Below, one piece after another: positions 20,544 through 37,338 of a stretch of DNA of 37,338 bases (its first letter is position 1; the number at the start of each line of letters is the position of its first letter). A program made the translations under genes and the position numbers. Below the pieces are notes generated by a model that saw nothing but the letters and a program-made list of their open reading frames with translations, was not told the origin of the DNA and ran no database searches. Source of the stretch: Gallionella sp. (lineage in GTDB: Bacteria; Pseudomonadota; Gammaproteobacteria; Burkholderiales; Gallionellaceae); NCBI GenBank assembly GCA_027311105.1, contig DAICZN010000029.1, forward strand, positions 1-37,338, in the 5' to 3' direction.

Positions 20544-20650
20544 AAAGCGGCGCGCACTTTACCACAGATTTATCACGCCTCACCAAGCGCAGATTCAGCC
20601 ATGACAAACCACAAAACTTACAAAACGCTTGCATAAGCCCACCTTAGCGT

Positions 20651-21195: not shown

Positions 21196-21256
21196 CAAGG
21201 TTTCCAGCCATCCACTGCCCAGGCGAAACTGCCGGGTAAGTCATTGGTTATAGTTT

Positions 21257-21436
21257 GTCCCCTGCGGTGTTCGACAGGCCTATAATTCTTTGAACCAATA
21301 AGCTTTGCTTAAGGCCGCGACCTTTGATGTTACTGTTGTGCGCATCCCCGAATGGCGGATGTACCTGATGTGACTTGGAAGCGGCCCTCTTGAACCCAGG
21401 TTCAAGATGCTGGGTCAACGGCACAGGCGGGGGGCT
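21257..21436 (+). ncRNA. ssrS: 6S RNA
   Basis: 6S RNA binds sigma-70 RNA polymerase by mimicking an open promoter. The roughly 180-base segment can fold as a long closed rod: the 5' end CCCCTGCGGTGTTCG pairs with the 3' end CACAGGCGGGGG. It contains the conserved right-arm hairpin TTGAACCCAGGTTCAAG (21393-21409), close to the equivalent in Escherichia coli. A -10 element TATAGT lies at 21249-21254, and position right after zapA is the classical location. Exact ends are estimated to within a few bases. Confidence 0.88.
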
Positions 21437-21444
21437 TTATTCCG

Positions 21445-21961: not shown

Positions 21962-22816
21962 ATGGAATGGTATGCGGCTTATTTGTTTCTCGGTGCAGTC
22001 GCCGGATTCCTGGCCGGAATATTCGGCGTCGGCGGCGGGTTGGTGCTGGTCCCCGTGCTGATGTTTCTGTTCGATTCACAGCACTTCCCCGCTGAAGATG
22101 TGATGCTCCTCGCCCTCGGCACCTCAATGGCGGCGATCATGTTCACATCGCTGGCAAGCTTGCGCGAACATCATCGCTACAGCGCGGTAAACTGGCGCGT
22201 GGTGCGCAACATCACCCCCGGAATTCTGCTCGGAACCGGTGTCGGCGCATTGCTCGCCGCTTCAATTCCGACACACGGCCTGGCCATATTTTTCGCACTG
22301 TTCGTGTATTCCGTGGCCGCGCAGATTCTGCTCAACATGCGCCCGCACGCCGCGCGCCAATTGCCCGGCGCAGCCGGCATGACGCTGACCGGCATACTCA
22401 CAGGCGGTCTTGGCAGCATGGTCTCCATCGGCGGCGGATCCATCATCGTGCCATTCCTGGTCTGGTGCAATATTCCGCTGCGCAGCGCTATCGGCACTTC
22501 CGCGGCGATTGGCTTTCCGGTTGCTATCGGCGGCACGATCGGTTATGTGGCAACCGGCCTGGGCATCCATGCCTTGCCCGCCCTGAGCCTGGGCTTTGTC
22601 TATCTTCCCGCCCTGTTCTGGGTCGCGTTTGGCAGCATCATCACCGCACCGCTGGGCGCAAAAGCAACGCATTCCATGCAGGTCGGGGCATTACGCAAAC
22701 TGTTCGCGATACTGTTGATCGCACTGGCAAGCAAAATGCTGTGGCATGAGCTGCCTTGGCACACTCAGCCGGCTCCGGTAGCCACTTCCACCCCCTCCCG
22801 GCTCAGCCGCCAGTAA
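21962..22816 (+). CDS. TauE/SafE family sulfite exporter/permease
   Basis: The start is the ATG at 21962, one base after the EVE gene stop, giving 284 aa with about eight membrane helices. Family features are the two glycine-rich repeats FLAGIFGVGGGLVLVPVLMFLF near residue 17 and TGILTGGLGSMVSIGGGSIIVPFLVW in the second half, each at the start of a homologous half. Members move sulfite, organosulfonates or other anions; the substrate here is unknown. The last 52 bases overlap, on the opposite strand, the 3' end of the ketosynthase-like gene. Confidence 0.93.
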   Translation: MEWYAAYLFLGAVAGFLAGIFGVGGGLVLVPVLMFLFDSQHFPAEDVMLLALGTSMAAIMFTSLASLREHHRYSAVNWRVVRNITPGILLGTGVGALLAASIPTHGLAIFFALFVYSVAAQILLNMRPHAARQLPGAAGMTLTGILTGGLGSMVSIGGGSIIVPFLVWCNIPLRSAIGTSAAIGFPVAIGGTIGYVATGLGIHALPALSLGFVYLPALFWVAFGSIITAPLGAKATHSMQVGALRKLFAILLIALASKMLWHELPWHTQPAPVATSTPSRLSRQ

Positions 22817-23379
22817 TGAGTATCCGGCGAAGCCAACTCCATGAGGCTGGAGGCGGCCACGAAATTTGCGGACGGCGGCGCACATGGCACAAGTCTGAGC
22901 CAGCTGCTGCCGGCGGGTCCCGGCTCTTCCACCCAGCCCAGCAGCATCCCGCCGCTTCCGGCCTGGAGGCAAGCGAAAGTTGCCAGCTCCGCCGGGTTGC
23001 GCGCCAAAACAATGCCAGCGTCTCCCTGCCATTTCAGCGCGGCGGCCAGCGCCGGCAATAGCTGGCTGGTTTGACTCTGCAGGAAGCTGAAAGGCATAGG
23101 CAGGCCTTCACGATTTTGCTCCAGCACCTGCAATATCGCCGAAAACGAGCCGCGCAAGCTGCACACCTGCAGCATGGTGTCTGCCGGCAACGTGGTTTCC
23201 CCGGCCGCGTCGAGACAAGCAAGCGCGCCGAAAAGTGCCAGTTCAGCCAGGATTCCGATTCGGCGCGGGCGATACCCCAGACGGATTGCCAACTGCTCGC
23301 GCCAGTTATCGGGAAGCTCGTTGCCGGAGCAAAATCCGCTGGCAGTTCGCCCGGTGATTTTCCAGGTCATGCTATCCAT
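22765..23379 (-). CDS. Ketosynthase-like chain-length-factor protein (APE type)
   Basis: The 204-residue protein resembles the N-terminal ketosynthase-like domain (PF13723 type) of short proteins annotated as beta-ketoacyl synthase chain length factor in aryl-polyene clusters. The relevant stretch is LRGSFSAILQVLEQNREGLPMPFSFLQSQTSQLLPALAAALKWQGDAGIVLARNPAELATFACLQAG, with the ketosynthase fold pattern but no nucleophilic Cys at the expected place (SQTSQ). By analogy it should pair with the adjacent ketosynthase and set chain length without catalysing condensation. Its ATG overlaps the ketosynthase stop by eight bases, supporting a heterodimer. It is somewhat shorter than the usual roughly 240 aa. 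Confidence 0.75.
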   Translation of the reverse strand: MDSMTWKITGRTASGFCSGNELPDNWREQLAIRLGYRPRRIGILAELALFGALACLDAAGETTLPADTMLQVCSLRGSFSAILQVLEQNREGLPMPFSFLQSQTSQLLPALAAALKWQGDAGIVLARNPAELATFACLQAGSGGMLLGWVEEPGPAGSSWLRLVPCAPPSANFVAASSLMELASPDTHYWRLSREGVEVATGAG

Positions 23380-24472
23380 GTCGTGTGCTCCCGGGAATCC
23401 CGGATCTCATGCTGGCGCTGGTATCCTCGAGTATCACGGCGGCATGGCCTCCGCCAAAACCCAGGATGTCCGCCAGTACATAACGTACGGATCCGGCTTC
23501 CGGATGAGCCAATACTGCACGCAGACCAGGATCCGGCAAATAGCCTGAACCCGGCCAGATGTTCGCTTCCAGACATGCTGTCAGCAAGGCGATTTCTGCG
23601 GCTCCGGATGCCCCCAGGGTATGCCCGATCGCCGCCTTGAATGTGACCAGCGGGGGCAATACTTCGAACGCCGCCGCCAATCCTGTCAATTCGTTTGCGT
23701 CATTTACCGGACTGCCCGCGGCCTGCAATTTGATCAGGTCTATGTCGGATGCCTGCAGGCCGCTGGCCTTAAGCGCCCGCGCACACATTTCACTGACTGT
23801 TTCCGGAATGGCGCCGGTCGGGTCGCGGCCATCGACGATATTGCTGCCTCCGCAAAAACGCCAGCGTGCCGGCTGGCCGGACAGATGCAGCACCGATACC
23901 GCCTCTCCGAGGGCGATCCCGTCACGGTCCAATCCCATTGGTTTTGGCTGGCCTGGCGTCAGCAGCTGCATCGCCGCAAAACCTGAAACGGAGTATCGGT
24001 TGGCCAATTCCACTCCCATTACAACGGCATCATTCACCCGGCCCGAATTGATGAATCCGGATGCGGACAAAATTGCCTGCAGCGAAGAAGTGCAGGCGCT
24101 GGAAACCAGATAGACCGGCCCTGTCCAACCCAGCCATTCGGCTATATTTTCGGCAAAGTCATGACTGTCTCCGGAACGAACCAGCCCTGTTTCAATCGCG
24201 CCGATGTCCAGTGAAGAAGATGCCACAAACAGCGGCGCGTTTCGAACCGTGTCCAGCCCCGCCTCGCCGGCGGCCGCACACACCAGCCGCTGTGCGCGGA
24301 TGCGCCAGTCCGGCTCGGCGTGGTCAATACTGAAATACGGCCAATCTGTTCCGTCGGCCAACACTATCCGGCCCACGTCCCGTCCACCCGCCGAGATACA
24401 GCCAAGCGCCTCGGAAAGACTTGCGCCCAGTGCCGAAATCAGCGCCCTCCCGCGCAGATATACCGGCTTCAT
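23372..24472 (-). CDS. Beta-ketoacyl-ACP synthase of the pigment cluster
   Basis: The 366-residue enzyme has the thiolase-fold ketosynthase pattern: the nucleophile in LVSSACTSSLQAIL (Cys127), LDRDGIALGEAVSVLHL, and FKAAIGHTLGASGAAEIALL (Lys279, His284). The first active-site His of KAS I/II enzymes, in HGTGT, is replaced by LQAAGSPVNDANE. It would extend the polyketide by two carbons per cycle from malonyl-ACP, together with the chain-length-factor-like partner downstream. Its ATG overlaps the stop of the acyl carrier protein gene, so carrier, ketosynthase and partner are translationally coupled. Confidence 0.88.
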   Translation of the reverse strand: MKPVYLRGRALISALGASLSEALGCISAGGRDVGRIVLADGTDWPYFSIDHAEPDWRIRAQRLVCAAAGEAGLDTVRNAPLFVASSSLDIGAIETGLVRSGDSHDFAENIAEWLGWTGPVYLVSSACTSSLQAILSASGFINSGRVNDAVVMGVELANRYSVSGFAAMQLLTPGQPKPMGLDRDGIALGEAVSVLHLSGQPARWRFCGGSNIVDGRDPTGAIPETVSEMCARALKASGLQASDIDLIKLQAAGSPVNDANELTGLAAAFEVLPPLVTFKAAIGHTLGASGAAEIALLTACLEANIWPGSGYLPDPGLRAVLAHPEAGSVRYVLADILGFGGGHAAVILEDTSASMRSGIPGSTRHG

Positions 24473-24738
24473 GCGCGACGCACAGACAGATATTCGGCAA
24501 GATGGGCGATGCTGCTCAAGGCTCGCCGTGTTTCCTTGCTGTCGGGCAGGCGTATAGCGTAGCGCTTCTGGATTTCCATGGAAATCTGCAATGCGTCGAG
24601 AGAGTCCAGGGCCAGCCTGGAGTCGGGCCCGAAAAGTATTTCATCATCGGCCAAACCGCCTTGCGGTTCATCCTTGTCGGCTGCGTACAGAACCAGCGCC
24701 TTCAGCTCGCGTTTGAACGCGTCAAGATCAGCAGTCAT
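24469..24738 (-). CDS. Acyl carrier protein
   Basis: From the ATG at 24738 the protein is 89 aa, and a continuous frame upstream is not needed. The phosphopantetheine site is in GPDSRLALDSLDALQISMEIQKRY, with Ser46 following Asp as required. Typical four-helix ACP spacing is present. It lies between the ABC permease and the ketosynthase and overlaps the latter (ATGA), so it is probably the dedicated carrier for the leftward operon, distinct from the carrier at 30806. Confidence 0.93.
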   Translation of the reverse strand: MTADLDAFKRELKALVLYAADKDEPQGGLADDEILFGPDSRLALDSLDALQISMEIQKRYAIRLPDSKETRRALSSIAHLAEYLSVRRA

Positions 24739-24754
24739 CCCTGATCCCGTTTCA

Positions 24755-26053
24755 TCAGCTGGCTCTGCGGCGGAAAAAAACAACCGCAATGATGATCATG
24801 ATCGCGGCAAAGCCCGTCAACTTTGCCGCCGGCATCAATACCCCGGCCGTATCGCTGCCGCGCAGCAGGACTGCAAGCATGCCCTCCAACCCCCAGTTCA
24901 TCGGTGAAAACTCCGCAAGCCGCTGCATGACTTCGGGCATAACGAATTTGGGCACCATCACGCCACCGATAGCTGCCATCAGTATGTTCACGATCGGACC
25001 CAGCGCCGAAGCTTGTGCATGCGTCCTTACCAGGCTTGCCAGCGCCAGCGCCAGGCCGATCGCCGCCATACTCACAGCAAGCAGTACCAGCATAAGCGCG
25101 CTCCAATGTATGCCCGCCAGCGACAGCGCATCCCCGCCCAGCAGCGGCATCAGCCAGACCCCCACCGCCAGCATCAATGCGGCTTGCAGCCCATTGATCA
25201 CCAGGTATGGCAAGGCCTTGGACCAGATCATCACGCCGGTGGGCACGCCCAGGCTGGCAAGCCTGGTCAGCGCTCCGCATTGCCGCTCCTGGATGAACAG
25301 ATTTGCCAGAGAAGCCACGACAAAAAACATGCCGAAAACCAGCCAGGCAGGCACGTTCTGCTGGACTGCGGTGGGGCGGGAGCCTGCCGATAACCGTTCA
25401 GTGTCTATCATGGCCAATGCGGAGACAGGCGCTGACTCATCCGGCGCGCCTGAACGCAATGAGCGTTGCGACGATCGTTGCGGCAATCGTTGTGACATGC
25501 GGGCCGCCGATAGCAGGGCCCGGGCACGCAGCTCGTTTGCAATCATGATCAGCTCGGCGTTGTTTGCAGCAAATGCGCCGCCTTCCAGTCCCGGCTCGGC
25601 AATCAACCTGAGTTGTTTCCCGCTATCCGGGTGCTCGGCTGCCAATTCTCTTGAAAAGTCTTTTTCTATGACCAGAACGTAACTCAACTTGCCGCCGCGC
25701 ACTTCGTCTTCCCAGTCAGCACTGTTTGCTTGCGGGCTTCCGTGCCTTTTTTTCCACTCTGCAAGAAAGTTGTCAGCCAGCCGACCGCTGTCCCGGTTCT
25801 CTACCACGTATGGCAGAGCCTTGGTGGGCGGGCTGTACACGTCTTTGAGCGCGAGCGACATGATGACGATAAAAATGGCCGGCATCAGAAACAGCGCGGC
25901 CAAACCATGCACATCGCGGATCAGGGCAAGAAATTCCTTTTTGATCAGGGCGAGCAGCATATAAACAACCACCAAAGTCCCGGTTCCACAGGCAGATGGA
26001 GCCTGCAGCAATTCTTCTCGGGTAACGCGGTCCGGATTTATCGGGGTTCGCAT
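24755..26053 (-). CDS. ABC-2 type transporter permease
   Basis: The ATG at 26053 gives 432 aa; a TTG two codons earlier overlaps the ATPase stop, and an internal ATG at 25960 (MLLALIKKEFLALIRD) is also plausible since the helix pattern begins there. One membrane helix (LAALFLMPAIFIVIMSLAL) is followed by a large extracytoplasmic domain of about 190 residues, then five helices at the C-terminus (WLVFGMFFVVASLANLFIQERQ; VINGLQAALMLAVGVWLMPLL; ALMLVLLAVSMAAIGLALALASL; and so on). This is the YhhJ/DrrB-like half-transporter layout of drug and lipid exporters. It pairs with the ATPase encoded just upstream. Confidence 0.9.
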   Translation of the reverse strand: MRTPINPDRVTREELLQAPSACGTGTLVVVYMLLALIKKEFLALIRDVHGLAALFLMPAIFIVIMSLALKDVYSPPTKALPYVVENRDSGRLADNFLAEWKKRHGSPQANSADWEDEVRGGKLSYVLVIEKDFSRELAAEHPDSGKQLRLIAEPGLEGGAFAANNAELIMIANELRARALLSAARMSQRLPQRSSQRSLRSGAPDESAPVSALAMIDTERLSAGSRPTAVQQNVPAWLVFGMFFVVASLANLFIQERQCGALTRLASLGVPTGVMIWSKALPYLVINGLQAALMLAVGVWLMPLLGGDALSLAGIHWSALMLVLLAVSMAAIGLALALASLVRTHAQASALGPIVNILMAAIGGVMVPKFVMPEVMQRLAEFSPMNWGLEGMLAVLLRGSDTAGVLMPAAKLTGFAAIMIIIAVVFFRRRAS

Positions 26054-26055
26054 GG

Positions 26056-26976
26056 TCAATCCCGCAACGGACGATGGGTGAGTGCCATGAACAGTTGCTC
26101 CAGGTTATTACGCCCGAATTCAACATACTTCAACCGACCGCCGACTTGTTCCACAGCGGCCAGCAGTTCGGCGGGCGTCCTGTCATGGGCAAGCGTCACC
26201 CGCCATTCTTCGCCGACAGACTCGACCTTGCCGAAACGCCCGAGCAGGGTATTCATTTCGCCGGCCGGCACGCCTTCCGCCGCCAGACGCATATGCGCAA
26301 CGCCATCCCGCAGCAACTCATTGAGGGTGCCATCACGCAAAACCTTGCCATCGTCAAGAATGACCACCCGGTCTGCAATCGCCTCGATTTCGTCCATGTA
26401 ATGGGAGGTATAGATCACGGCCGCGCCGCTATCGGCAATCATCTTCACGGCATCCAGCAGGAACGCCCGTGACTGCGGGTCCACGCCCACAGTGGGTTCG
26501 TCCAGGAGGATAAGCTCGGGTTCGGGCAACAAGGCTATTGCCAGGTTCAGGCGCCGTTTCAGTCCGCCGGAAAGCCTTTCGGCGCGGATTTTCACGAAAC
26601 GCTCCAACTGGGAAAAGGCCAGGCACTCAGCGATACGCCGGCGTTTGCAGTCGCCTCCCAGCCTGCCCGCCGCCGCAAAACATTCCAGGTTTTCCTTTAC
26701 CGTGAGCATTGGATAGAAAGCGTATTCCTGAGGCGCAACCGCGATGCGTGTTGGAGCTTTGCGCCGAACGTCCGCCAGCGGCGACCCGTCTATCAATATA
26801 GCCCCGTGCTGGACCTGCAATATCCCCGAGAGGTGCGAAATCAGCGTGGTCTTGCCGGCACCATTCGGGCCCAGCAAGCCAAGAATTTTGCCGCGCCCGG
26901 CATTGAGTGACACGCCTGTCAGCGAGGGTTTCTCCGCATCCGGGTAGCAATACGAAAGATCCCTTATTTCCAGCAT
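26056..26976 (-). CDS. ABC transporter ATP-binding protein
   Basis: The ATG at 26976 overlaps the stop of the BtrH-like gene (TGATG) and gives 306 aa. Walker A is GPNGAGKTT at 37-45, the signature is LSGGLKRRLNLA at about 135, Walker B is LILLDEPTVGVDP at about 155, and the switch His lies in IYTSHYMDEIE. The C-terminal 90 residues after the nucleotide domain are the extension typical of CcmA/DrrA-class exporters. It would drive export of a lipid-like product with the permease encoded next. Confidence 0.95.
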   Translation of the reverse strand: MLEIRDLSYCYPDAEKPSLTGVSLNAGRGKILGLLGPNGAGKTTLISHLSGILQVQHGAILIDGSPLADVRRKAPTRIAVAPQEYAFYPMLTVKENLECFAAAGRLGGDCKRRRIAECLAFSQLERFVKIRAERLSGGLKRRLNLAIALLPEPELILLDEPTVGVDPQSRAFLLDAVKMIADSGAAVIYTSHYMDEIEAIADRVVILDDGKVLRDGTLNELLRDGVAHMRLAAEGVPAGEMNTLLGRFGKVESVGEEWRVTLAHDRTPAELLAAVEQVGGRLKYVEFGRNNLEQLFMALTHRPLRD

Positions 26977-27959
26977 CAATTGAGCGCCGTTTTCAAATCG
27001 CGAAAAAAAACTTCCTCTTGCCTGGAAAGGTCGCGCAGCAAATCCGCCAATATCACCGGATTCAGGGCATCGCGCCCCTTGACCATGCGTGCAGTCGCCA
27101 GCGCAAATGCTCTCCAACCATCACCTATCAACATCAGCCGGTCGGAAAATCCGGACAGCATTCCCATGCCGGACAAGCTCGCCACTTCCTGCAGGAAGGC
27201 CGCATACAGAAAACGGAATCCCGCGCCTCCCGTACCGATTTCCTCCTGCATGCGAATGATGTGCCCCACAAACAATGAACTCCGGTGCGCAGCCGGATCA
27301 AGCCTGGCAACCCTGCTGGCAAGCGTTTTGATGCCGCGCACACCGATGATAGGCAAAGGCGCAAGCATCGTCCGGCAGGTTTTAAGAATTGCTTTGCGCG
27401 CCGCCCGGGATGTGATGGTGGATACGCCCGGCTTTTGCATGGTATACAGCAAACCCCTGGGGGCAAGCACACCCCTGGCAAAGCGGGCGCGCGACAGGGA
27501 TGCCGCATCGCAGCGCACAGTCTGCTCGCCAACCGGGTCGCTGATCAGGTAATCATTGCCCTCCTTGCCGAACACCAGGAGATTATGCGCATTAAAATGA
27601 AAGCGCATGTCCTCCGGAAAATAGGGCAGCCAGTACACCGATGTCTGCAAACCCACCACATGGCCTTGCGCCAGCAACTCATCCAGGCGCGCCTGTCCCG
27701 CGGCAGGATTGCGAAAAGTTTCAAAGCGAAATTCGGCCTCGAGCACTTTGCCCAGACCCCTGATGATGGATCTGGGTGGCTGGCGATAAGCGATGAGGGG
27801 CAGGCCGGACAGCTTGATGAATGGCAGGTAGGCAAACGACAATGCCGCCGACAGGCCAAAGGCCATGGCCTCGGTAATCGGCACACCGTGGTGGCAGACC
27901 AGGTTGGAGACCACTCCGCTTTCACAATGTGCGGCATGGCGATGGTGCGGGAAAGTCAT
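26976..27959 (-). CDS. BtrH-like papain-fold acyltransferase
   Basis: The ATG at 27959 overlaps the upstream stop and gives 327 aa. The N-terminus, HHRHAAHCESGVVSNLVCHHG, matches the BtrH N-terminal domain pattern HCxSG, with Cys12 as likely nucleophile. FNAHNLLVFGKEGNDYLISDPV supplies a His (125) and an Asp (141) in the arrangement of C39/papain-like enzymes. BtrH in butirosin biosynthesis transfers an acyl group from a carrier protein to an aminoglycoside amine. By analogy this protein could move the polyene acyl chain from its carrier onto an acceptor such as the resorcinol. That role is inference. The C-terminal 130 residues are helical and without a known match. Confidence 0.8.
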   Translation of the reverse strand: MTFPHHRHAAHCESGVVSNLVCHHGVPITEAMAFGLSAALSFAYLPFIKLSGLPLIAYRQPPRSIIRGLGKVLEAEFRFETFRNPAAGQARLDELLAQGHVVGLQTSVYWLPYFPEDMRFHFNAHNLLVFGKEGNDYLISDPVGEQTVRCDAASLSRARFARGVLAPRGLLYTMQKPGVSTITSRAARKAILKTCRTMLAPLPIIGVRGIKTLASRVARLDPAAHRSSLFVGHIIRMQEEIGTGGAGFRFLYAAFLQEVASLSGMGMLSGFSDRLMLIGDGWRAFALATARMVKGRDALNPVILADLLRDLSRQEEVFFRDLKTALN

Positions 27960-28351
27960 GGCAGGCGCTGTAATTGTTGCACGGCAAGACCGAGCGCTTC
28001 GGCATAACGCTTCAGCATGCCGGGCGACAGGCGCGCGAAAATCTCCGGCCGGAAATGGCGGCGGATACGCCAACGCCAGATGCCGGTTGACTGCGCCAGC
28101 AACAACAAGTCCATGCGACGGGCATACATCCAGTATTCCAGCGTCGATGACAAACCATTTATCGCGTTTTGCCGTGCAGTTTCAGCCAGGGAACGCATCT
28201 CTTCCACGGCCTGGCTGGTCACTATTTCCTCAACCTCCCACCCATTGGAAGCGGCCACCACGATGTGGCCGCCCGCATCCCTGGCATAGACCGCCTTCCT
28301 GTACCCCCCCAGGGTTTTGTTGCCATCCTGGGGTACATTTTGCAAATCCAT
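27956..28351 (-). CDS. Small pigment-cluster protein with HTH-like C-terminus, unknown function
   Basis: The ATG at 28351 overlaps the darB stop (TAATG) and gives 131 aa; its own stop overlaps the BtrH-like start. Residues 15-70 form an N-terminal part (GYRKAVYARDAGGHIVVAAS, GWEVEEIVTSQAVEEMRSLAETARQ). Residues 80-128, MDLLLLAQSTGIWRWRIRRH and then FARLSPGMLKRYAEALGLAVQQL, follow the pattern of a Cro/Xre helix-turn-helix: LA...G-[5-6]-R...F..LS...L.RYAEAL.... No function is known to me. I recall similar small proteins next to darB genes in Bacteroidetes, which was not checked. Confidence 0.8.
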   Translation of the reverse strand: MDLQNVPQDGNKTLGGYRKAVYARDAGGHIVVAASNGWEVEEIVTSQAVEEMRSLAETARQNAINGLSSTLEYWMYARRMDLLLLAQSTGIWRWRIRRHFRPEIFARLSPGMLKRYAEALGLAVQQLQRLP

Positions 28352-29484
28352 TACACCGCCTCCAGATAAGCGAACGCGCTGGAAAAACGACCGCTCTCCG
28401 GAATGTACATCAACAGCTTTTGCCCTTTCTTTATGCGGCCGGAACGAAAAAGTTCGTCCAGCATAATGTACGGGGCTGCCGATCCGGTATTGCCTTTTCT
28501 TTCCAGGTTTGAAAACCAGCGCTCGCGGGGAATGGGCAAACCGATTTCGGCGAGGCCTTTGACGATAGGCTCGACAAAGTACCGGGAGGATATATGCGGC
28601 AGAAACCAGTCTATATCCCGCACGCCCAGGTTTCTTTTTTCCATTACCGCGGCTAGAGGCTCGGACAAAGTGGCCCTGATGACATTTTCGTTCAATAGCC
28701 GGACATCCTGCTTGAGCGAAAAGATGGAATTCGAGCCCCACTCCGCCGCCGCGAATCCCCGCCAGCCCAGCAAAGACCCGTCTTCGCTTTTTTCACCGCC
28801 TGCATACATGCAGGCGGGCAATTCATGTGCGGCAGAAGAAAGCTCGATCCAGTCTATGCGCAACGATTGTGTGCCGCATGGCTGGTTCTCCAACAAGAAT
28901 GCGCCCGCACCATCCGAGAGCATCCAGCGTAGAAAATCTTTCTCAAAGGCTATTTCCGGATGAGCCTCGAGTGCCTGGAGCTTGTGCTCTACCTCGGCCT
29001 CAAAGTTGGCGGCGCGCAAAGAAGAAGAGGCCAGCTCGGAGCCCGTGGCAACTGCACGCTGCACATCGCCCGCGCTAACCGCCAGCCATGCATGCTTGAG
29101 TGCCGCCGCACCGGAGACACATATCCCCGAAAACGAAACCACCTGCAAACGCGGCCATTTCAATTCGCCGTGCACCATGACCGCATGGTTGGGCAACAGC
29201 TGATCCGGAGAGGATGTGCCACATGACAACAATTCAACCCCGTCTACCTCACCCAGGGCGCCAACCGCCTGCGCCGTGAGTTGCGCATTCGACATGGCGA
29301 CCTTCCCTGTCGTCCGGTCTATGGCGTAATGCCGCGACAGAATGCCGTTGCTGCGCAATATCACCCGCCGGGCACGCGACGGTTTCCCGCCAACCATGCC
29401 CAGCACCTGCTCCATTTCGTCATTGCTGACCGGATCAAAAGGCAGGAAGGATGCCGTTTTGTTGATATAAACTTTAGATAACAT
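28351..29484 (-). CDS. darB: KAS III-like ketosynthase of dialkylresorcinol biosynthesis
   Basis: DarB-type enzymes couple two fatty or polyene beta-keto precursors to a cyclohexanedione that DarA aromatises to a dialkylresorcinol. From the ATG at 29484 the protein is 377 aa. The N-terminus, VYINKTASFLPFDPVSNDEM and GGKPSRARRVILRSNGI, is the family hallmark. The KAS III triad is present: Cys122 in VVSFSGICVSGAAALKHA, His297 in DWFLPHISSRYF, and Asn332 in LERKGNTGSAAPYIML. Its start lies 11 bases inside the end of darA. The darAB pair is what marks the cluster as resorcinol-forming. Confidence 0.9.
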   Translation of the reverse strand: MLSKVYINKTASFLPFDPVSNDEMEQVLGMVGGKPSRARRVILRSNGILSRHYAIDRTTGKVAMSNAQLTAQAVGALGEVDGVELLSCGTSSPDQLLPNHAVMVHGELKWPRLQVVSFSGICVSGAAALKHAWLAVSAGDVQRAVATGSELASSSLRAANFEAEVEHKLQALEAHPEIAFEKDFLRWMLSDGAGAFLLENQPCGTQSLRIDWIELSSAAHELPACMYAGGEKSEDGSLLGWRGFAAAEWGSNSIFSLKQDVRLLNENVIRATLSEPLAAVMEKRNLGVRDIDWFLPHISSRYFVEPIVKGLAEIGLPIPRERWFSNLERKGNTGSAAPYIMLDELFRSGRIKKGQKLLMYIPESGRFSSAFAYLEAV

Positions 29485-30439
29485 AATTGGACATACGCTC
29501 GTCTCCCGAGCCCGAAGGAAGTTCAAAATCATGCTTCATCCGGGCGAGTTGCTTTCCCAGCACAGGCCGGATCAATGCCTGCAGCGCCAGGCTGGCTGGT
29601 ATCACGGTCACGATCAAGGCAACCAGAAAGATCACATATAAAAACAATAGCGGCTTGCGCAACCAACTCCCCGGCTCCCCGGCTGCGCGCACCAGCTTCC
29701 CCCATAAATAAAAACTGCGTGTTGCCGCCTGTTCGGTGAAATACAGCCTCGCATCGGCTTCAACAGCCTTGAGGCCGGCAAGCAAAGGGGCGGCGCTTTT
29801 CTCGGCATCATTTGCCAGTGCGCTCTGCAAGGCCAGGCCAAAACGTTGCGCATGCAAAATTTCAGGCGGCGCGATCCCCGGGGGAGGCAAGCCCAGAAAC
29901 CCCGCCTGTCTCCCGGTGAGAAACCAGAGCGGCGTCGTGACGAGCGTGGCAAACACATTTCCACGGTCGGCAAAAACCACATTGTCGATCAGGCGTGCAC
30001 CCAAGCCGTCCAGCATGCTTTTCATCTTCTGGTGCGCCATCAACCACATATTCCGGCAGGCGATCACAGTGACCACAGGTTTGTTTTTCAGCAAGCTGGT
30101 CGTCATGGGGTGCTTTAAAAAAGCCGTAACCGGCAAAGATGGGGCAAGAAACCATACCTGATAGAACAGAATGACCAGGTCAAAATCTTCCCCGCCCTTC
30201 AGCTCAAGCGGCTCAAGCTTCGGCGCGATCAAATGTGCGGCCTCGGGAAACGCATCGAAGAATCGAAAAACCGGCCACGGGAATGGATAGGCGGGCACAG
30301 GGCGGAGCATTTCCAGGTGCACATCCACTTTCGGATTTTCCCGCAAAGGGGCAAGAACCTGATGGGCAATCCGGGCAAGCTGTCCGGTTTGCGAGTAACA
30401 GATTGCCAGTACACGCTTAGGTCGATCGGAAGTAGTCAC
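29474..30439 (-). CDS. darA: Dialkylresorcinol condensing enzyme family protein (DarA-like)
   Basis: The likely start is GTG at 30439 (TTSDRPKRVLAICYSQTGQ follows), giving 321 aa; the frame stays open 22 codons further. The N-terminal half resembles a flavodoxin-like fold, with the phosphate-binding loop YSQTGQL at about 15-21, and then DFDLVILFYQVWFLAPSLPVTAFL and NKPVVTVIACRNMWLMA. The C-terminus has a hydrophobic segment at about 264-290 that probably anchors it to the membrane. In flexirubin and dialkylresorcinol clusters DarA works with DarB to yield the aromatic resorcinol. It is the first gene of the leftward operon. Confidence 0.85.
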   Translation of the reverse strand: MTTSDRPKRVLAICYSQTGQLARIAHQVLAPLRENPKVDVHLEMLRPVPAYPFPWPVFRFFDAFPEAAHLIAPKLEPLELKGGEDFDLVILFYQVWFLAPSLPVTAFLKHPMTTSLLKNKPVVTVIACRNMWLMAHQKMKSMLDGLGARLIDNVVFADRGNVFATLVTTPLWFLTGRQAGFLGLPPPGIAPPEILHAQRFGLALQSALANDAEKSAAPLLAGLKAVEADARLYFTEQAATRSFYLWGKLVRAAGEPGSWLRKPLLFLYVIFLVALIVTVIPASLALQALIRPVLGKQLARMKHDFELPSGSGDERMSNYVI

Positions 30440-30805
30440 AAAAATCCATAGCTGCAAGTTCAATAAAAATATTCTTGCCTCAATCCGGCCAACTCCTGAA
30501 GCCAATATCTGACGACGCGGGGACTCGATGAAACGCGCGGAGAAACAAGGTGATTACAACCAGTTTGTTCTTGATTCTATCCCATAATGCGCTTCACGCT
30601 CAATAAACAATGGCATCTTAACGCACTGGAAATTTAATGACTCAATGCCATGCCTGCGTCAAATGGCAGCGGTGAAACCGGGATATATCCATCGGGCGAT
30701 CATGGACACCCAACTGAAAATTAAGTATCCTTGCACTGTGCGCTGGCGTTATTTCACGCCAGTTCCGGCATTTCACATCAGGAACAAATTCGTGAGCGTT
30801 TTATT
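30440..30805. promoter_or_regulatory. Divergent intergenic control region of the pigment cluster
   Basis: These 366 bases hold the promoters of both operons but no gene. CTGGCGT at 30743-30749 and ACGCCAG at 30756-30762 form an inverted repeat about 45 bases before the acyl carrier protein start, possibly an operator or leader hairpin. The stretch around 30560-30620 is AT-rich. No promoter matches the sigma-70 consensus convincingly on either strand. AGGAAC at about 30780 is rather far from the ATG at 30806. Confidence 0.5.
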
Positions 30806-31090
30806 ATGAACACTGCTGCCGACATCAAAGATACCGGGTTTGAGCAAGAACTTGCCCAACACATCGTTACCGCATTGAATATGGAAATCAATCCGGCTGG
30901 AATCGACCCTCTCGCCCCTCTGTATGGAGATGCCGGTCTCGGCATAGACTCGATCGACGTGCTCGAAATCTCCCTGGTTATCACCAAGCAATATGGTGTT
31001 CAACTGCGCTCGGATGATGAAAATAATGTCAGAATATTTTCATCATTGCGCAATCTCGCCAACCATGTCCAGCAATACCGGATCAAATAA
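30806..31090 (+). CDS. Acyl carrier protein, first gene of the rightward APE-like operon
   Basis: The 94-residue protein has the phosphopantetheine site GDAGLGIDSIDVLEISLVIT, with Ser49 after Asp. The ATG at 30806 is chosen because the upstream extension is not ACP-like; the ribosome site is weak. The COG4648 gene begins immediately after its stop (TAAATG). In aryl-polyene clusters a carrier protein in this position accepts the aryl starter from the ligase encoded two genes downstream. Confidence 0.92.
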   Translation: MNTAADIKDTGFEQELAQHIVTALNMEINPAGIDPLAPLYGDAGLGIDSIDVLEISLVITKQYGVQLRSDDENNVRIFSSLRNLANHVQQYRIK

Positions 31091-31747
31091 ATGCGGTCTC
31101 ATGGCAGCAGAATCGGCGCCATTGCCTTTGCCCTGGCTTTTCTGGGTTACCAGTTCTTCATTCATAAAGTAACCACCTCCGGCCCGCTTACACCGGTCAC
31201 GGCAGCGCTGGTTCTCATTCCCTTTGTTATCGCGGCAGGATGGGCCATTGCAGTTGAACTGGGTTTGCGCTGGGCGCTATTCATAACCATAGGCATGACA
31301 GTCCTCGGCGTCTCATCGGCAGGCATTCTCGGCCTTCCCCCTACCCTCATCTTCGGCCTGCCGCACATGGTGACCAATTTATTCCTGATGTGGTTCTTTG
31401 GACGCACGCTGAGGAACGGGCGGGAGCCATTGATCACGTCCATAGCCCGGCGTGTGCACGGTTCGCTGACAGCGGATATCGAAATCTATACGCGAAGAAT
31501 AACCTACGTTTGGAGCCTGTTTTTTCTGCTGCAGGTGGTTGTATCCGCAGGATTGTATATTTTTGCCCCGCTGAAGGCCTGGTCGATATTCATCAACATC
31601 CTTAACGCCCCGCTGATTGCCCTGGTGTTTCTTTGTGAATATTCATACCGCACATTGCGTTATCGCGACCACCGGAGCTCGATTTTTTCCGGCACGCAAT
31701 TTTACTCGCGCGACAAGCCGGTATCCAAATCCTCCAAATCAGGTTAA
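31091..31747 (+). CDS. COG4648 family membrane protein of APE clusters
   Basis: The 218-residue protein has about six membrane helices (AIAFALAFLGYQFFI; ALVLIPFVIAAGWAIAVEL; WALFITIGMTVLGVSSAGIL; MVTNLFLMWFFG; WSLFFLLQVVVSAGLYIF; FINILNAPLIALVFLCEY) and a basic C-terminal tail beginning YRTLRYRDHRSSIF. Membrane proteins of this type, with the same ACP-COG4648-AMP ligase order, recur in aryl-polyene clusters. No biochemical function has been assigned that I know of. It directly abuts the carrier protein gene. Confidence 0.85.
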   Translation: MRSHGSRIGAIAFALAFLGYQFFIHKVTTSGPLTPVTAALVLIPFVIAAGWAIAVELGLRWALFITIGMTVLGVSSAGILGLPPTLIFGLPHMVTNLFLMWFFGRTLRNGREPLITSIARRVHGSLTADIEIYTRRITYVWSLFFLLQVVVSAGLYIFAPLKAWSIFINILNAPLIALVFLCEYSYRTLRYRDHRSSIFSGTQFYSRDKPVSKSSKSG

Positions 31748-31764
31748 TCGCTGCGGGCCAGACC

Positions 31765-33099
31765 ATGCCATCCATCCCGCTGCTGAAATACCGCCAACCC
31801 GAGTCCGTTTTTGCGTGGCAGGACGGGAATGCAATCTCCGCACAGCGTTTCCTGACCGATGTCGTATCGCTGGCGGAACTGTTGCCGGCACGTTCCCATA
31901 TCCTGAACTTGTGCAATGACCGATATCGTTTCCTGGTCGGGTTTTCTGCGGCATTGTTGCGCGGCCAGATCAGCTTGCTGCCGCCCAACCAGACACCCGA
32001 CCTGCTTAACCGGCTCAAGCAGCATTACGCGGACTTGTATTGCCTTACCGATGCGGCTGATTACCGCGGACCACTTGAAACCCTGCACTTCCCCGACCTA
32101 TCCCAACTGGTCCTGCCCCCGACTTCAATACCCGAAATCCCGGCCAGCCAGATAGCGGCTATCGTTTTCACCTCCGGATCTACCGGCAATCCGATGCCCA
32201 ACGAAAAAAGCTGGGGCTCCCTCACCCGCAGCGTCACCGCCGAAGCGCAAAGATTGTCAATACTCGACCGGGGCAACCTGACTTTGCTGGGCACGGTACC
32301 GCCCCAACACATGTACGGATTCGAATCTACCGCGCTGATTGCGCTGCAGGCCGGCGTGATACTGCACGCTGCCAAACCGTTTTTTCCGGCAGACATCGGC
32401 GCGGCATTGAATGGAATCCCCGGTCCGCGCGCGCTCATCACCACGCCTGTGCACCTCAGGACCCTGGTCGCCAGCGACGTGGACTTGCCTGAACTTGAAC
32501 TGATCGTATGTGCCACCGCACCCCTGACACGCGAACTGGCCATGCAAGCCGTAACGCGCTTTGGCGCGCCACTGCGGGAAATATATGGCTTCACGGAAGC
32601 CGGGCAGATAGCCAGCCGTGACACCGCGACAACAGATGTATGGCAGACCCTTGATGGATTATCATTGCGCGAGGAAGATGGGGTCATTTATGTTTCCGGC
32701 GGCCATGTTGTTGGCGAACTCCCGTTCAGTGACGTGGCAGAACTGCACAGCGACACCACTTTTTCGCTGCACGGCAGGACTGCAGACCTGATCAATATCG
32801 CGGGGAAACGCACTTCTCTCGCCAGCCTGAACCACCACCTCAATGCAATCGATGGCGTGCTGGACGGCGTATTTTTCATGCCCGAAGAGCACGACGGGAA
32901 CACGGTTAGACTGGCTGCATTTGTCGTGGCTCCCGATCTTGATACCCGCGAAATACTGGCTGCCCTGCGGCTGCGTATCGACCCTGCATTTTTGCCCAGG
33001 CCGATGCACAAAGTGGATGCATTGCCCAGAAATGCCACCGGGAAATTGCCCCGCGCCAGCCTGGCCACCCTCCTTCAGCAATACAAGGGAGCGGCATAA
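31765..33099 (+). CDS. AMP-dependent acyl/aryl-ACP ligase
   Basis: The 444-residue adenylating enzyme shows the P-loop FTSGSTGNPMPNEKSW at about 135-150, the YGFTEAGQIASR motif at 274-285, a hinge Arg in LHGRTADLINIAGKRTS at about 338, and the catalytic Lys in NATGKLPR (Lys427). It is shorter than acyl-CoA synthetases, as are the ligases of aryl-polyene clusters, which activate 4-hydroxybenzoate or a related acid and load it onto a carrier protein. The substrate cannot be read from the sequence. It lies 17 bases after the membrane protein gene. Confidence 0.88.
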   Translation: MPSIPLLKYRQPESVFAWQDGNAISAQRFLTDVVSLAELLPARSHILNLCNDRYRFLVGFSAALLRGQISLLPPNQTPDLLNRLKQHYADLYCLTDAADYRGPLETLHFPDLSQLVLPPTSIPEIPASQIAAIVFTSGSTGNPMPNEKSWGSLTRSVTAEAQRLSILDRGNLTLLGTVPPQHMYGFESTALIALQAGVILHAAKPFFPADIGAALNGIPGPRALITTPVHLRTLVASDVDLPELELIVCATAPLTRELAMQAVTRFGAPLREIYGFTEAGQIASRDTATTDVWQTLDGLSLREEDGVIYVSGGHVVGELPFSDVAELHSDTTFSLHGRTADLINIAGKRTSLASLNHHLNAIDGVLDGVFFMPEEHDGNTVRLAAFVVAPDLDTREILAALRLRIDPAFLPRPMHKVDALPRNATGKLPRASLATLLQQYKGAA

Positions 33100-33100
33100 A

Positions 33101-33421
33101 GTGACCACGCTGTTGTTGCAGTTCCCCGCAAACCATCCTTGTGGCGCCGGCCACTTCCCCGGCAACCCTGTCATCCCGGGCGCACTGCTGCTGGACGAAG
33201 TGCTGGCCTGCATTTCTGCCAGCCTGGATGCCGGCGACACAGCATGGAAAGTGAGGTCCGCCAAATTTCCGGGGACGGTCAGGCCCGGCGACAAGGTGCG
33301 CATCAACTTTACCCGGCCCGGTAACGGCGACATCTGCTTCGAATGCACCGTGTCCGGCAACAAGGTATTATCCGGCACTTCAAGTATTCGTCCCGTATCC
33401 GCCGTGGAATCACCATTGTGA
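33101..33421 (+). CDS. Hotdog-fold 3-hydroxyacyl-ACP dehydratase (APE type)
   Basis: The start is GTG one base after the ligase stop; the protein is 106 aa. The helix-capping signature HPCGAGHFPGNPVIPGALLLDEVL contains the catalytic His18 of the FabA/FabZ-like hotdog family, and RSAKFPGTVRPGDKVRINF is the second conserved block. It should dehydrate the 3-hydroxyacyl intermediate in each round of polyene extension. Its stop overlaps the next gene start (GTGA). Unlike FabZ it stands within a pigment operon, and it is at the short end of the family size. Confidence 0.85.
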   Translation: MTTLLLQFPANHPCGAGHFPGNPVIPGALLLDEVLACISASLDAGDTAWKVRSAKFPGTVRPGDKVRINFTRPGNGDICFECTVSGNKVLSGTSSIRPVSAVESPL

Positions 33422-34305
33422 GCCAGGAGTGGACCACCCGTCCCGAGCGCAGCAATGTTCTCGTGATCCGCTTTATCGTGTGGTTTGCACTTGCCGCGGG
33501 GCGATACGCGTCCCGCGCCCTGCTTTTCCCGATTTGCCTCTACTTCATCATCGTTTCCGCAAAGGCGCGTGCCGCCTCCCGTGATTACCTGAATCGGGCA
33601 TTGCAGCGCCGCGCCACTCTGCGGGATATTTTCCGGCATTACTTTTTCTTTGCATCGACCATTCTCGACCGGATATTCCTGCTCGACGGACGAAACGAAT
33701 TGTTCGAGATTCATGTGCAAGGGAAGGAGTTCTTAAAAGAAGCCATCTCCGGTGGCCGCGGCTGCCTTCTTGTCGGTGCCCATATGGGCAGCTTCGAAAT
33801 TTTGCATACGGTCAGCCTCGACCATGGATACGCTGAAACCAGCATGGCCATGTATCAGGAAAACGCACGCAAACTGAACACCGTCCTCGGGAGCATCAAT
33901 CCCCGGCGCAACCCGTCCGTGATCTCCCTTGGAAAAATCGACTCCATGCTGAAAATTCGCGAGGCGCTCGATTGCGGCGAAACTGTCGGCATGCTGGCGG
34001 ATCGCGCCATATCGGGGGAAAAGATGATCCGCTGCAATTTCCTGGGTGGGACTGCTGAATTTCCCTCCGGCCCGTTTCGTCTTGCGGCGATACTCGACCG
34101 CCCTATCATCCTGATGTTTGGCCTGTATCAGGGCGGGAACCGTTATAATGTTTACTTGGAGCGCCTGACCAGGCTGCCACCGGGGCAGAATCCGGGACGC
34201 GATGAAGAAATAGAACAATCCGTTAAACAATTCGCCAGGCGGCTGGAACATTACTGCATCTTATCCCCCTACAACTGGTTTAATTTCTATGATATCTGGA
34301 AATAA
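33418..34305 (+). CDS. LpxL/HtrB-like lysophospholipid acyltransferase of the pigment cluster
   Basis: The start is GTG at 33418, overlapping the dehydratase stop; 295 aa. The N-terminus has a membrane-associated helix (VLVIRFIVWFALAAGRYASR). The acyltransferase box is GAHMGSFEILH (His122, Glu127), followed by MLADRAISGEKMIRCNFLGG and FPSGPFRLAAI. This is the LpxL/HtrB subgroup. In aryl-polyene clusters this enzyme is thought to attach the polyene acyl chain to a membrane acceptor. It overlaps the following gene by 17 bases. Confidence 0.9.
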   Translation: MSQEWTTRPERSNVLVIRFIVWFALAAGRYASRALLFPICLYFIIVSAKARAASRDYLNRALQRRATLRDIFRHYFFFASTILDRIFLLDGRNELFEIHVQGKEFLKEAISGGRGCLLVGAHMGSFEILHTVSLDHGYAETSMAMYQENARKLNTVLGSINPRRNPSVISLGKIDSMLKIREALDCGETVGMLADRAISGEKMIRCNFLGGTAEFPSGPFRLAAILDRPIILMFGLYQGGNRYNVYLERLTRLPPGQNPGRDEEIEQSVKQFARRLEHYCILSPYNWFNFYDIWK

Positions 34306-35050
34306 TCCCGATTTGATTTTGCCAGCCCAAACCACCTTACACGCACGAATCACGCATGGCGCAATAACACCCTCTCCGGCAAGCGGCAACAAACCCGGTG
34401 CGTATCCAGGGAAAAGCAGAGGATTGGATGGTTTCCTTCCTGCTGACAGCCGGCCGCGCCCGTTTTTCTGGGTGTTTCTGGCAGTTTTTTTCGGCCTGGC
34501 GTGCCAACCGGCTTATGCAGCCGAACCGGAAAGCGATGCATGGAACCTCAATGCACTGATGCACGGACTTGCCCAGGTAAAGCACTCCAAAGCCACCTTT
34601 GTCGAACACAAATACTTGAGCATACTGAAAACCCCGCTGAAATATTCCGGAACACTCACCTACAGCGCCCCGGGACATCTTGAAAAGCTCACGCTGCTTC
34701 CCAAGCCGGAAAGCCTGGTACTGGATCAGGATATTCTGGTCGTGCAACGCGGCGAGCCGGTCCAGAAGCGCACCCTGTCCCTGCAGGACTATCCGGCGAT
34801 CTGGGCATTCGTCGAAAGTTTCCGCTCCACGCTGGCGGGAGACATAGCCACCCTCGACCGCTTTTACAAGGTATCCATGGATGGCCAGCCGAATCAATGG
34901 CTGCTCATCCTGCGGCCGATCGACCCGAAGATGAAAAACCTGGTCAGCGAAATCCGCATCACTGGCAGCCTTGCGCAAATCGGCACCATCGAGATCCGCG
35001 AACCGGGCGGTGACTATTCGGTAATGAACATCAGCAAGGATGATTCGTGA
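34289..35050 (+). CDS. LolA-like periplasmic carrier protein of the pigment cluster
   Basis: The frame from the ATG at 34289 gives 253 aa but leaves 57 residues before the signal-like segment FFWVFLAVFFGLACQPAYA (cleavage before AEPES). A TTG at 34424 would give a normal 31-residue signal but has a poorly spaced AGAGGA, so the start is uncertain. The mature part (LMHGLAQVKHSKATFVEHKYLSILKTPLKYSGTLTYSAPGHLEKLTLLPKPESLVL) matches the LolA/LolB-like fold that shields lipids in the periplasm. It probably carries the pigment to the outer membrane. The next gene start overlaps its stop. Confidence 0.85.
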   Translation: MISGNNPDLILPAQTTLHARITHGAITPSPASGNKPGAYPGKSRGLDGFLPADSRPRPFFWVFLAVFFGLACQPAYAAEPESDAWNLNALMHGLAQVKHSKATFVEHKYLSILKTPLKYSGTLTYSAPGHLEKLTLLPKPESLVLDQDILVVQRGEPVQKRTLSLQDYPAIWAFVESFRSTLAGDIATLDRFYKVSMDGQPNQWLLILRPIDPKMKNLVSEIRITGSLAQIGTIEIREPGGDYSVMNISKDDS

Positions 35051-37338
35051 AGCGTTTCAGCCGGTCCCTGTTTAGCCGGCATGCCGCTGTTGCAGCCTGG
35101 ATTTTTTTCCTGGCGCTGTGCATTTTCGTTGTCAGCAGAGTTCAGGTCGGCGCCGACCTCAGCGCATTCCTGCCGCGCACACCAACCCCGGCGCAACAGT
35201 TGCTCAGCGAACAATTGCGTGACGGCGTTTTTTCCCGGCTGATCCTGATCGGCATTGAAGGGGGCACGCCGGATGCCTTGAGTGCAGCCAGCAAACAGCT
35301 CGCGCAGCAATTGCGCAATGAAAAACAGTTCTCGCTGGTCAATAACGGCGATGAAAACAGCCTTGCCAAAGACCAGTCTTTCCTGCTTGAAAACCGCTAC
35401 CTTCTGAGCTCCGCAGTCACCCCGGAACATTTCACTCCCGGCGGACTGCATGCAGAACTCGAGAACTCACTGCAATTGCTGGGTTCCCCGGCCGGATTCA
35501 TGGTCAAACAACTGATTCCCCGCGACCCCAGCGGGGAACTGCTGCATCTGCTTGAAGGATTTTCCGGCCAGAGCCAGCCATCTGCGCACAACGGTGTGTG
35601 GGTATCGCATGACGGCAGGCGCGCGCTGCTGCTCGCACAAACCAGGGCGCCCGGGTTTGACATCGATGCCCAGCAAAAAACCATAGCGCTGATCCATACC
35701 CGTTTCGCAGAAATTACCCGCGCTGCGGAATTTTCCGGCTTGCGTCTGGTGATGAGCGGTCCCGGCGTGTTTTCGGTGCATGCGCGGGACCATATCAAGG
35801 ACGTCGCTTTCATTTTTTCCGTCATCACTTCAATTCTTGTCAGCATCCTGCTGTTGCTGGTCTACCGTTCCTGGCGCGTGCTCGCCTTGTCGCTGCTTCC
35901 CGTGGCCAGCGGCGCACTGGCGGGAATCGCGGCAGTCAGCGTGGGTTACGGCGTGGTTTATGGGGTAACGCTGGGATTTGGCATCACACTGATCGGCGAA
36001 GCGGTGGACTACGCGATCTTTTTCTTCACCCGCCTTGCTCCCGGCAAACCGCCAAACATGGCGCTCGACAGGATTTGGCCCACCCTGCGCCTGGGCGTAA
36101 TGACCACGATCTGCGGTTTCAGCCCGATGTTCCTGGCGAATTTTCCGGGCTTCGCGCAATTGGGGCTGTTCTCGGTAGTAGGCCTGATCGTAGCCGTGCT
36201 GGTCACCCGCTGGGTACTGCCCAGCCTGGTACCAGACAATTTTTCCACCATTACGCCCGCACGTCTTTCCGCCCGGCTGATGGATCTGATACGGCAAGCT
36301 CCGCGGATGCGCCCGGTGGTATTGGCAGCAGTACTGGTCGCGGTCCTGTCCATCGTTTTCCACCGCGGGCCGGCGTGGAGCGACAGCCTCTCCAGCCTCA
36401 GCCCGTTGCTGGAGGAGGATAAGCGCCTGGACGAATCGTTGCGGCATGATATAGGCGCACCGGATGTGGGCTATATGGTGATCGTCGGCGGCAATAGCCG
36501 CGAGGATGCGCTGGTGAACAGTGAAGCGTTGGGCGCCCAACTGGATATCCTGGTCAACAGCCATGCCTTGTCCGGTTACGATACACCCGCCCGCTACCTG
36601 CCGAGCGACAAGGCGCAGCGCGCCCGACTGGCCGCATTGCCCGCAGCGGAAAAGTTGCAGGCCAACCTGAGGCAGTCACTCGCGGGCCTGCCGTTCCGCG
36701 CGAACCTGTTCGCGCCCTTCCTCAGCGATGTCGCCAACGCCCGCAAGCATCCGCTGCTTGCACCCGATGATTTGCGCGGTACCAACCTCGGACTCCAGAC
36801 TGAAAGTCTACTGGTTCAGCGCGGCAACGGCTGGGCAGCCATCCTGCCGCTGCGGGGCGTGACCGATATCACGACTGTGCAGCGCGCAATCACCCGGCAG
36901 GGTGGGAACATCGTATTGCTGGACTTGCAGCGCGAAAGCAATCTGCTCTACCAGACCTACGTTGATGAAGCCATAAAATTATCCAGTTTCGGCGCCCTGG
37001 CGATCATCCTGCTGCTGCTGGTCAACCTGCGCTCGGTGCGTCGCGTGGCAATGGTGTTGCTGCCATTGGCCGCCGCTGTAATCATCACCACGGCCATTGT
37101 GCTGGCCAGCGGCCAGAAGCTGCTGATCTTCCACCTGATAGGCTTGCTGCTGGCGGTTGCGGTGGGTTCCAACTATTCGCTGTTCTTTGATCGCGAAAGT
37201 TATTCCGGGCAGGATGACGACAGCAACCGGCGCACCATGCTGTCGCTGCTGGTTGCCAACATCTCCACCAGCATCGCATTCGGCATGCTGGGATTTTCCG
37301 GTGTCCCGTTGCTGGCCGCGATAGGCGAGACCGTAGCG
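35047..37338 (+). CDS. MMPL/RND family exporter of the pigment cluster (3' truncated by window)
   Basis: The start is GTG at 35047, overlapping the LolA-like stop (GTGA). The frame is open for 764 codons to the window end, so the C-terminus is missing. An N-terminal helix (AAVAAWIFFLALCIFVVSRV) is followed by a large periplasmic domain with VGADLSAFLPRTPTPAQQLL. Then come helix bundles with VAFIFSVITSILVSILLLLVYRSWRV and LGFGITLIGEAVDYAIFFFTRL (conserved Asp in the membrane), a second periplasmic domain, and a second bundle at the end (FGALAIILLLLVNLRSVRRVAMVLLPLAAAV). It would move the product out of the inner membrane by proton motive force. Confidence 0.9.
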   Translation, partial: MKRFSRSLFSRHAAVAAWIFFLALCIFVVSRVQVGADLSAFLPRTPTPAQQLLSEQLRDGVFSRLILIGIEGGTPDALSAASKQLAQQLRNEKQFSLVNNGDENSLAKDQSFLLENRYLLSSAVTPEHFTPGGLHAELENSLQLLGSPAGFMVKQLIPRDPSGELLHLLEGFSGQSQPSAHNGVWVSHDGRRALLLAQTRAPGFDIDAQQKTIALIHTRFAEITRAAEFSGLRLVMSGPGVFSVHARDHIKDVAFIFSVITSILVSILLLLVYRSWRVLALSLLPVASGALAGIAAVSVGYGVVYGVTLGFGITLIGEAVDYAIFFFTRLAPGKPPNMALDRIWPTLRLGVMTTICGFSPMFLANFPGFAQLGLFSVVGLIVAVLVTRWVLPSLVPDNFSTITPARLSARLMDLIRQAPRMRPVVLAAVLVAVLSIVFHRGPAWSDSLSSLSPLLEEDKRLDESLRHDIGAPDVGYMVIVGGNSREDALVNSEALGAQLDILVNSHALSGYDTPARYLPSDKAQRARLAALPAAEKLQANLRQSLAGLPFRANLFAPFLSDVANARKHPLLAPDDLRGTNLGLQTESLLVQRGNGWAAILPLRGVTDITTVQRAITRQGGNIVLLDLQRESNLLYQTYVDEAIKLSSFGALAIILLLLVNLRSVRRVAMVLLPLAAAVIITTAIVLASGQKLLIFHLIGLLLAVAVGSNYSLFFDRESYSGQDDDSNRRTMLSLLVANISTSIAFGMLGFSGVPLLAAIGETVA

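Follow-up and report, generated by a model that had tools for sequence, protein, structure and literature searches.

A very probable arcuflavin-type pigment gene cluster in a Gallionella-clade bacterium

What pigment would be made by two divergent operons that place dialkylresorcinol (DAR) genes beside aryl-polyene genes? We examined such a pair at positions 22765-37338 of a Gallionella sp. contig (GCA_027311105.1, DAICZN010000029.1; hereafter C13) for gene content, gene order, protein families, synteny in relatives and conserved residues. The window analysed was this entire contig of 37,338 bases, and the genome bin holding it (1.75 Mb, 144 contigs) is 65.5% complete. All 16 open frames were present in the order and on the strands given in a preliminary description of the DNA, with nine genes leftward (darA, B, D, E, F, I, C, J, K) and seven rightward (arcV-U-T-S-R-Q-P). 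That description had proposed a flexirubin-like, two-part pigment in a betaproteobacterium. The pairing of an aryl-polyene set with a DarA/DarB set, the betaproteobacterial origin and the likely two-part pigment were supported by the families and relatives found here; we conclude with high confidence that the genes form an arcuflavin-type cluster of a Gallionella-clade bacterium.

Cluster content and proposed pathway

Arcuflavin, from Azoarcus sp. BH72, is a xanthomonadin-like aryl polyene joined to a dialkylresorcinol; the parts of the 2014 report drawn on here describe a methylated aryl-heptaene, suggested there to form an ester with the DAR, and loss of pigment upon insertion in arcK or arcT (PMC3949708). 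In that work, ArcB converts chorismate to 3-hydroxybenzoate (3-HBA), which ArcT adenylates. Each of the 16 window genes has a counterpart in Table 1 of the report by annotation and gene order, the comparison being made from that table and not by sequence alignment. As BH72 lists the same genes, the window very likely holds a further arcuflavin-type cluster.

DarB passed the StlD/DarB family model NF005293 (588.6 bits, cut-off 450) and aligned over its full length with the solved ketosynthase StlD (5gk0, E 1.6e-127), results that assign it to this family. Its Cys138, His313 and Asn348, whose roles we assume from FabH, each recur in 97% or more of the 81 rows of an alignment made up of the window and a set of 80 DarB loci taken with flanks of up to 10 kb, many of which end early. 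DarA matched no Pfam or NCBIfam model in family scans, and its assignment comes from relatives, detected by tblastn in 79 of the 80 loci. Accessory dar genes accompany both.

The polyene set continues beyond the window. C13 ends inside arcP, whose product, at 764 aa, stops about 20 residues short of its full-length relatives (784-785 aa), and since the window is the whole contig, the cluster runs off its end, as had been anticipated. The ketoreductase (KR) and further synthases expected there were located elsewhere in the bin, on contig C9. Absence of further synthase genes, which the preliminary description had named as refuting its reading, was thus not borne out in the bin or in its relatives. 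In order, C9 carries genes for a chorismatase (FkbO/Hyg5 family), MipA, an acyltransferase, a glycosyltransferase, an Na/H exchanger, an MFS protein (label read from sequence), a methyltransferase, the KR, a putative dehydratase (DH), an ArcJ-like ketosynthase (KS) domain, ArcK, a second methyltransferase, a polysaccharide deacetylase, a small protein, PAP2 and a FabF-type KS that we named KS2. ArcK scored 547 bits with PRK09185 (cut-off 407), and the chorismatase 127.3 bits with PF21168 (cut-off 27), with FkbO (4bps) among its solved relatives. The polyene acyl carrier protein (ACP), ligase, DH, KS, KR, acyltransferase, LolA and MMPL genes are all found across the window and C9, and on single contigs in relatives; the polyene-block chorismatase gene is on C9.

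In Candidatus Gallionella acididurans, arcR-Q-P and the whole C9 gene set lie on one contig (L101), where arcP ends near 4113 and KS2 starts at 4228 on the opposite strand; the dar operon and arcS-arcV are on a separate contig (L012). The C9-type gene set is followed there by a tryptophan-halogenase-type, arcA-like gene (L104:58-1410). A second genome (G003, L099) has the same succession of genes as far as the chorismatase, starting at arcP, with no matches to the small protein, the MFS gene and one methyltransferase, and two more have it from arcP to the KR (G001, L100; G002, L103), whose contigs stop within 3 kb past the KR. About 2.2 kb separates KS2 from arcP in G001.

The following pathway can be proposed if the product, together with the reactions of chorismatase, ligase and DAR enzymes, is taken from the 2014 Azoarcus work. 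The chorismatase would supply 3-hydroxybenzoate, which ArcT would load onto the ACP ArcV; ArcK/ArcJ and KS2, the KR ArcH and the dehydratases ArcI/ArcS would build the aryl-polyene acyl chain, which the methyltransferase ArcM may O-methylate. A beta-ketoacyl partner would come from DarJ/DarC, DarB would condense and cyclise two acyl chains, and DarA would aromatise the ring to give the dialkylresorcinol. DarE, with its Cys-His-Asp residues, would then shift the polyenoyl group from the carrier protein to a resorcinol hydroxyl, forming the ester. ArcQ (LolA), ArcP (MMPL), ArcR/ArcD and the DarF/I ABC pair may help the pigment reach the outer membrane, where it could serve as an antioxidant.

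Comparison with arcuflavin and flexirubin clusters

Besides the window genes, counterparts of BH72 arcB, C, D, E, G, H, I (by position), J, K, M and N are on C9, and the arcA-like halogenase gene is matched in the closest relative. No counterparts of arcF, arcL or arcW/arcX were seen in this comparison, and arcO was not assigned. The two arc loci of BH72 are not linked to each other, and its dar genes are listed some 19 gene numbers away from one of these loci (PMC3949708), whereas dar and arc are divergent neighbours in the window, which offers a more compact cloning target than the scattered Azoarcus locus. The BH72 dar set contains darG/darH (Phd/PilT-type), which the window lacks; the second FabF-type KS, PAP2, MFS and methyltransferase genes are extra. 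The darH of that report is a PilT-domain gene, and not the NCBIfam DarH, which is DarE here.

Flexirubins are likewise aryl-polyene esters of dialkylresorcinols, with a starter derived from tyrosine via an ammonia-lyase, and in the published sections consulted, the clusters of Chitinophaga pinensis and Flavobacterium johnsoniae share the predicted pigment type and export-type genes with ours and would differ in this tyrosine ammonia-lyase starter (PMC3992019). A flexirubin-type cluster, with a 4-coumarate starter and a Bacteroidetes-like pigment that shifts colour in alkali, would also account for DarA/DarB, LolA, the acyltransferase, exporter, deacetylase and glycosyltransferase, but it is very unlikely: the ammonia-lyase that the preliminary description expected was not found (PF00221, 0 matches in our bin, itself only 65.5% complete), an FkbO/Hyg5-family chorismatase lies in the polyene block, as in arcuflavin and xanthomonadin clusters, the KR falls under the FlxB cut-off (277.9 vs 340) and over a FabG one (371.9 vs 273), and the best DarB relatives are betaproteobacterial. 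Given the BH72 gene match, the chorismatase and the lack of an ammonia-lyase match, the product should be arcuflavin-like and not flexirubin-like. The base-induced colour shift suggested earlier as a check would probably be negative, because the Azoarcus extracts, as far as the cited portion reports, showed no shift with alkali (PMC3949708).

Several points weigh against an arcuflavin-type assignment. DarB fell below the stricter resorcinol_DarB model (NF053539; 497.6 vs 550 bits), as did all six other DarBs scanned (465-527 bits), from Variovorax, Pseudothauera, an Azoarcus metagenome-assembled genome (MAG), Pseudomonas, a Helicobacteraceae MAG and a gammaproteobacterial MAG. The chorismatase was under the NCBIfam TIGR04444 cut-off (245.2 vs 325), and according to the cited part of the Azoarcus report its reaction cannot be predicted from sequence (PMC3949708). 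The protein taken as the dehydratase ArcI matched no Pfam or NCBIfam model, and the antiporter, the MFS protein and the second methyltransferase have no place in the proposed pathway. The arcuflavin-like product is itself a prediction from the gene set. Finally, no overlap between the ends of C9 and C13 was found, so the arcP-C9 linkage is claimed from relatives only. The 360 bases following KS2 are unlike the arcP end, suggesting that an insert probably sits between arcP and KS2 in the window genome.

The close relative G005 has, directly after arcP, a toxin-antitoxin pair identified by Pfam as AbiEii/AbiEi and, after KS2, an HsdR-like gene whose type I restriction label was read from sequence (L102:7438-9041, L105:4330-5055), a probable insertion of defence genes within the pigment cluster. 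Of the 360 bases of the C9 tail, 216 match G005 sequence beyond the AbiE pair that adjoins arcP.

Yellow polyene-DAR hybrids of this kind have been known in betaproteobacteria, Gallionellales included, since 2014: the part of the report considered here names Sideroxydans as a carrier of both gene sets and also mentions D. aromatica and V. paradoxus, and Sideroxydans lithotrophicus ES-1 is likened to our cluster by this mention, not by gene order (PMC3949708). With the present cluster, genes for arcuflavin-type pigments extend to relatives of Gallionella as well. Our search of open-licence literature found no pairing of Gallionella or Sideroxydans with aryl polyene, or of Gallionellaceae with dialkylresorcinol; this is a weak negative, as the 2014 paper is worded otherwise. 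For DarH together with dialkylresorcinol, the 2014 paper was the only match.

DarE as a candidate ester-forming enzyme

DarE scored 447.7 bits against NF053550 (cut-off 300) and contains a BtrH_N domain. Its Cys12, His125 and Asp141 were invariant in 43 of 43 sequences. A sequence search against solved structures gave no matches up to E 1, so relatives came from fold comparison alone: the predicted model aligned with CtaG, AziU3/AziU2 and CcbD over 293-304 of 327 residues at 10-17% identity. The three residues resemble C11, H128 and D144 of CtaG, with a His-to-Asp spacing of 16 residues in both, and we infer that His125 is the catalytic histidine. Known members of this fold family mostly N-acylate. 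DarE would form an ester, whereas those CtaG, AziU3, CcbD and BtrH-type members with a described reaction mostly make amide bonds.

With its predicted fold and invariant residues, DarE is the best candidate for the step joining the pigment halves. We propose tentatively, with slightly more doubt than confidence, that the ester of proteobacterial polyene-dialkylresorcinol pigments is made by DarE/DarH, as a papain-like enzyme of the BtrH/CtaG type that would take the polyenoyl chain off a carrier protein and attach it to a resorcinol hydroxyl. If so, DarE would be an O-acylating branch of a mostly N-acylating family, and it provides a concrete, testable candidate. The 2014 report, in the part cited, calls the gene product a BtrH-like peptidase (PMC3949708). 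For flexirubin, the ligase-like FlxW was proposed to join the halves in the cited portion of that work (PMC3992019).

Co-occurrence of DarE with polyene genes was also considered as support for this role and set aside. In 50 DarB genomes picked from the 80 loci, DarE exceeded its cut-off in 47 and an ArcP relative occurred in 48 (34 strong, 14 weak with best E above 1e-50), and this comparison fails to discriminate; the sample took in no genomes known to be DarB-positive and polyene-negative. Two genomes (G434, G445) had weak MMPL matches yet no DarE match, one (G438) had a DarE fragment under the cut-off, and two (G432, G437) had DarE and no ArcP match.

Distribution, arrangement and neighbouring features

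The top DarB relatives were from MAG LL2.bin39 and Ca. Gallionella acididurans (each 96%), followed by three Gallionella MAGs (81-82%) and then Rhizobacter, Variovorax and Rhodocyclales (~70%). DarB was detected at E up to 1e-60 in 8 of 60 sampled genomes of the family, and the StlD/DarB cut-off was passed in 14 of 399 genomes of the order, our own included in both counts; the trait is patchy at both levels.

At least two arc genes, counted at 38% identity and 25% cover, were present in 11 of the 80 DarB loci within the stretch examined. The divergent layout was seen in Gallionella loci L012, L013 and L015, and in L052 with another gene order. Six loci run in one direction, namely L020, L037 (Nitrosomonadales), L039 (Gallionellaceae), L041 (Sideroxyarcus), L050 and L051 (Ferriphaselus), and L064 is mixed. 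That the genes are merely adjacent and yield two products, a free dialkylresorcinol acting as a signal or antibiotic and a xanthomonadin-like polyene, would fit the remaining 69 loci with fewer than two arc genes, many of which end early, and Gallionella G002, where dar and arc are some 11 kb apart, with unrelated genes in the 8.9 kb of this interval that was read. This too is highly improbable: the unlinked Azoarcus sets yield one hybrid molecule and, in the section cited, free DAR was not detected (PMC3949708), nearly all of the 50 chosen DarB genomes have an ArcP relative, and the predicted DarE fold is that of carrier-protein-dependent acyltransferases. The G002 stretch (L014:1-8900) encodes, by labels read from sequence, an NrfD-like membrane protein, a TonB receptor, a hybrid sensor kinase and an EAL response regulator.

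Most gene labels of the preliminary description were backed by family scans. Its "small HTH-like" label for DarD found no Pfam match, and "chain-length factor" for DarK was not supported, as DarK matched no Pfam or NCBIfam model and profile comparison gave probabilities of 0.3% (ArcJ), 0.7% (ArcK) and 9.5% (DarJ). The COG4648 label of ArcU, also without a Pfam or NCBIfam match, comes from that description; the names DarA, DarD, DarK and ArcU follow position and relatives in other genomes. The best NCBIfam model for ArcT was 4_coum_CoA_lig, at 101 bits under its cut-off of 335, and ArcS was scanned as frame 32843-33421. The DarJ profile matched ArcK at 100% probability. DarJ retains Cys127 and His284, and the first FabF-type (HGTGT-type) His is replaced (61 of 65 loci with a match aligned); assuming that these positions are catalytic, DarJ may decarboxylate or transfer instead of carrying out normal elongation. 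The LDSLD motif of DarC (22 of 66 loci used) and the DSID motif of ArcV (4 of 14 loci used) were conserved.

Table 1. Features of the divergent dar and arc operons, in window positions
Feature	Positions	Strand	Basis or remark
darK-like, 204 aa	22765..23379	-	open frame; relative in 42/80 DarB loci
darJ, ketosynthase-like, 366 aa	23372..24472	-	PF00109/PF02801
darC, acyl carrier protein	24469..24789	-	PF00550
darI, ABC-2 permease	24755..26059	-	PF12698
darF, ABC transporter ATPase	26056..26979	-	PF00005
darE (NCBIfam name DarH), candidate BtrH-like Cys-His-Asp acyltransferase	26976..27959	-	NF053550, PF14399+PF16169
darD, small protein, 131 aa	27956..28351	-	relative in 77/80 DarB loci
darB, StlD/DarB-family cyclising ketosynthase	28351..29532	-	NF005293; start may be downstream
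darA, proposed aromatase	29474..30436	-	start uncertain, frame open to 30505
divergent intergenic region	30437..30805, about 370 bases	.	between dar and arc operons
arcV, acyl carrier protein	30806..31090	+	PF00550
arcU, 218 aa, probable membrane protein	31091..31747	+	syntenic in relatives
arcT, AMP-forming ligase, 3-hydroxybenzoate-type by homology	31765..33099	+	PF00501
arcS, FabA-like dehydratase	33101..33421	+	PF07977, 24.2 vs 23 bits; start uncertain
arcR, LpxL-like acyltransferase (Lip_A_acyltrans)	33343..34305	+	PF03279; start uncertain
arcQ, LolA-like carrier (LolA_3)	34289..35050	+	PF19574
arcP, MMPL exporter, cut by contig end	35047..37338	+	PF03176

Read from the sequence, the operons likely start at a GTG near 30436 (darA) and an ATG at 30806 (arcV). 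A consensus sigma-70 promoter scan of the gap between them gave two matches against 1.0 expected by chance, and a terminator scan of the same gap found none. Elsewhere in the window, a cobalamin riboswitch (RF00174, 97.7 bits, 20342-20559, minus strand) precedes a gene (18303-20159) whose sequence resembles that of a TonB-dependent receptor, and a 6S RNA (RF00013, 64.9 bits) occupies 21256-21437 on the plus strand, just after a gene that we take to be ZapA-like.

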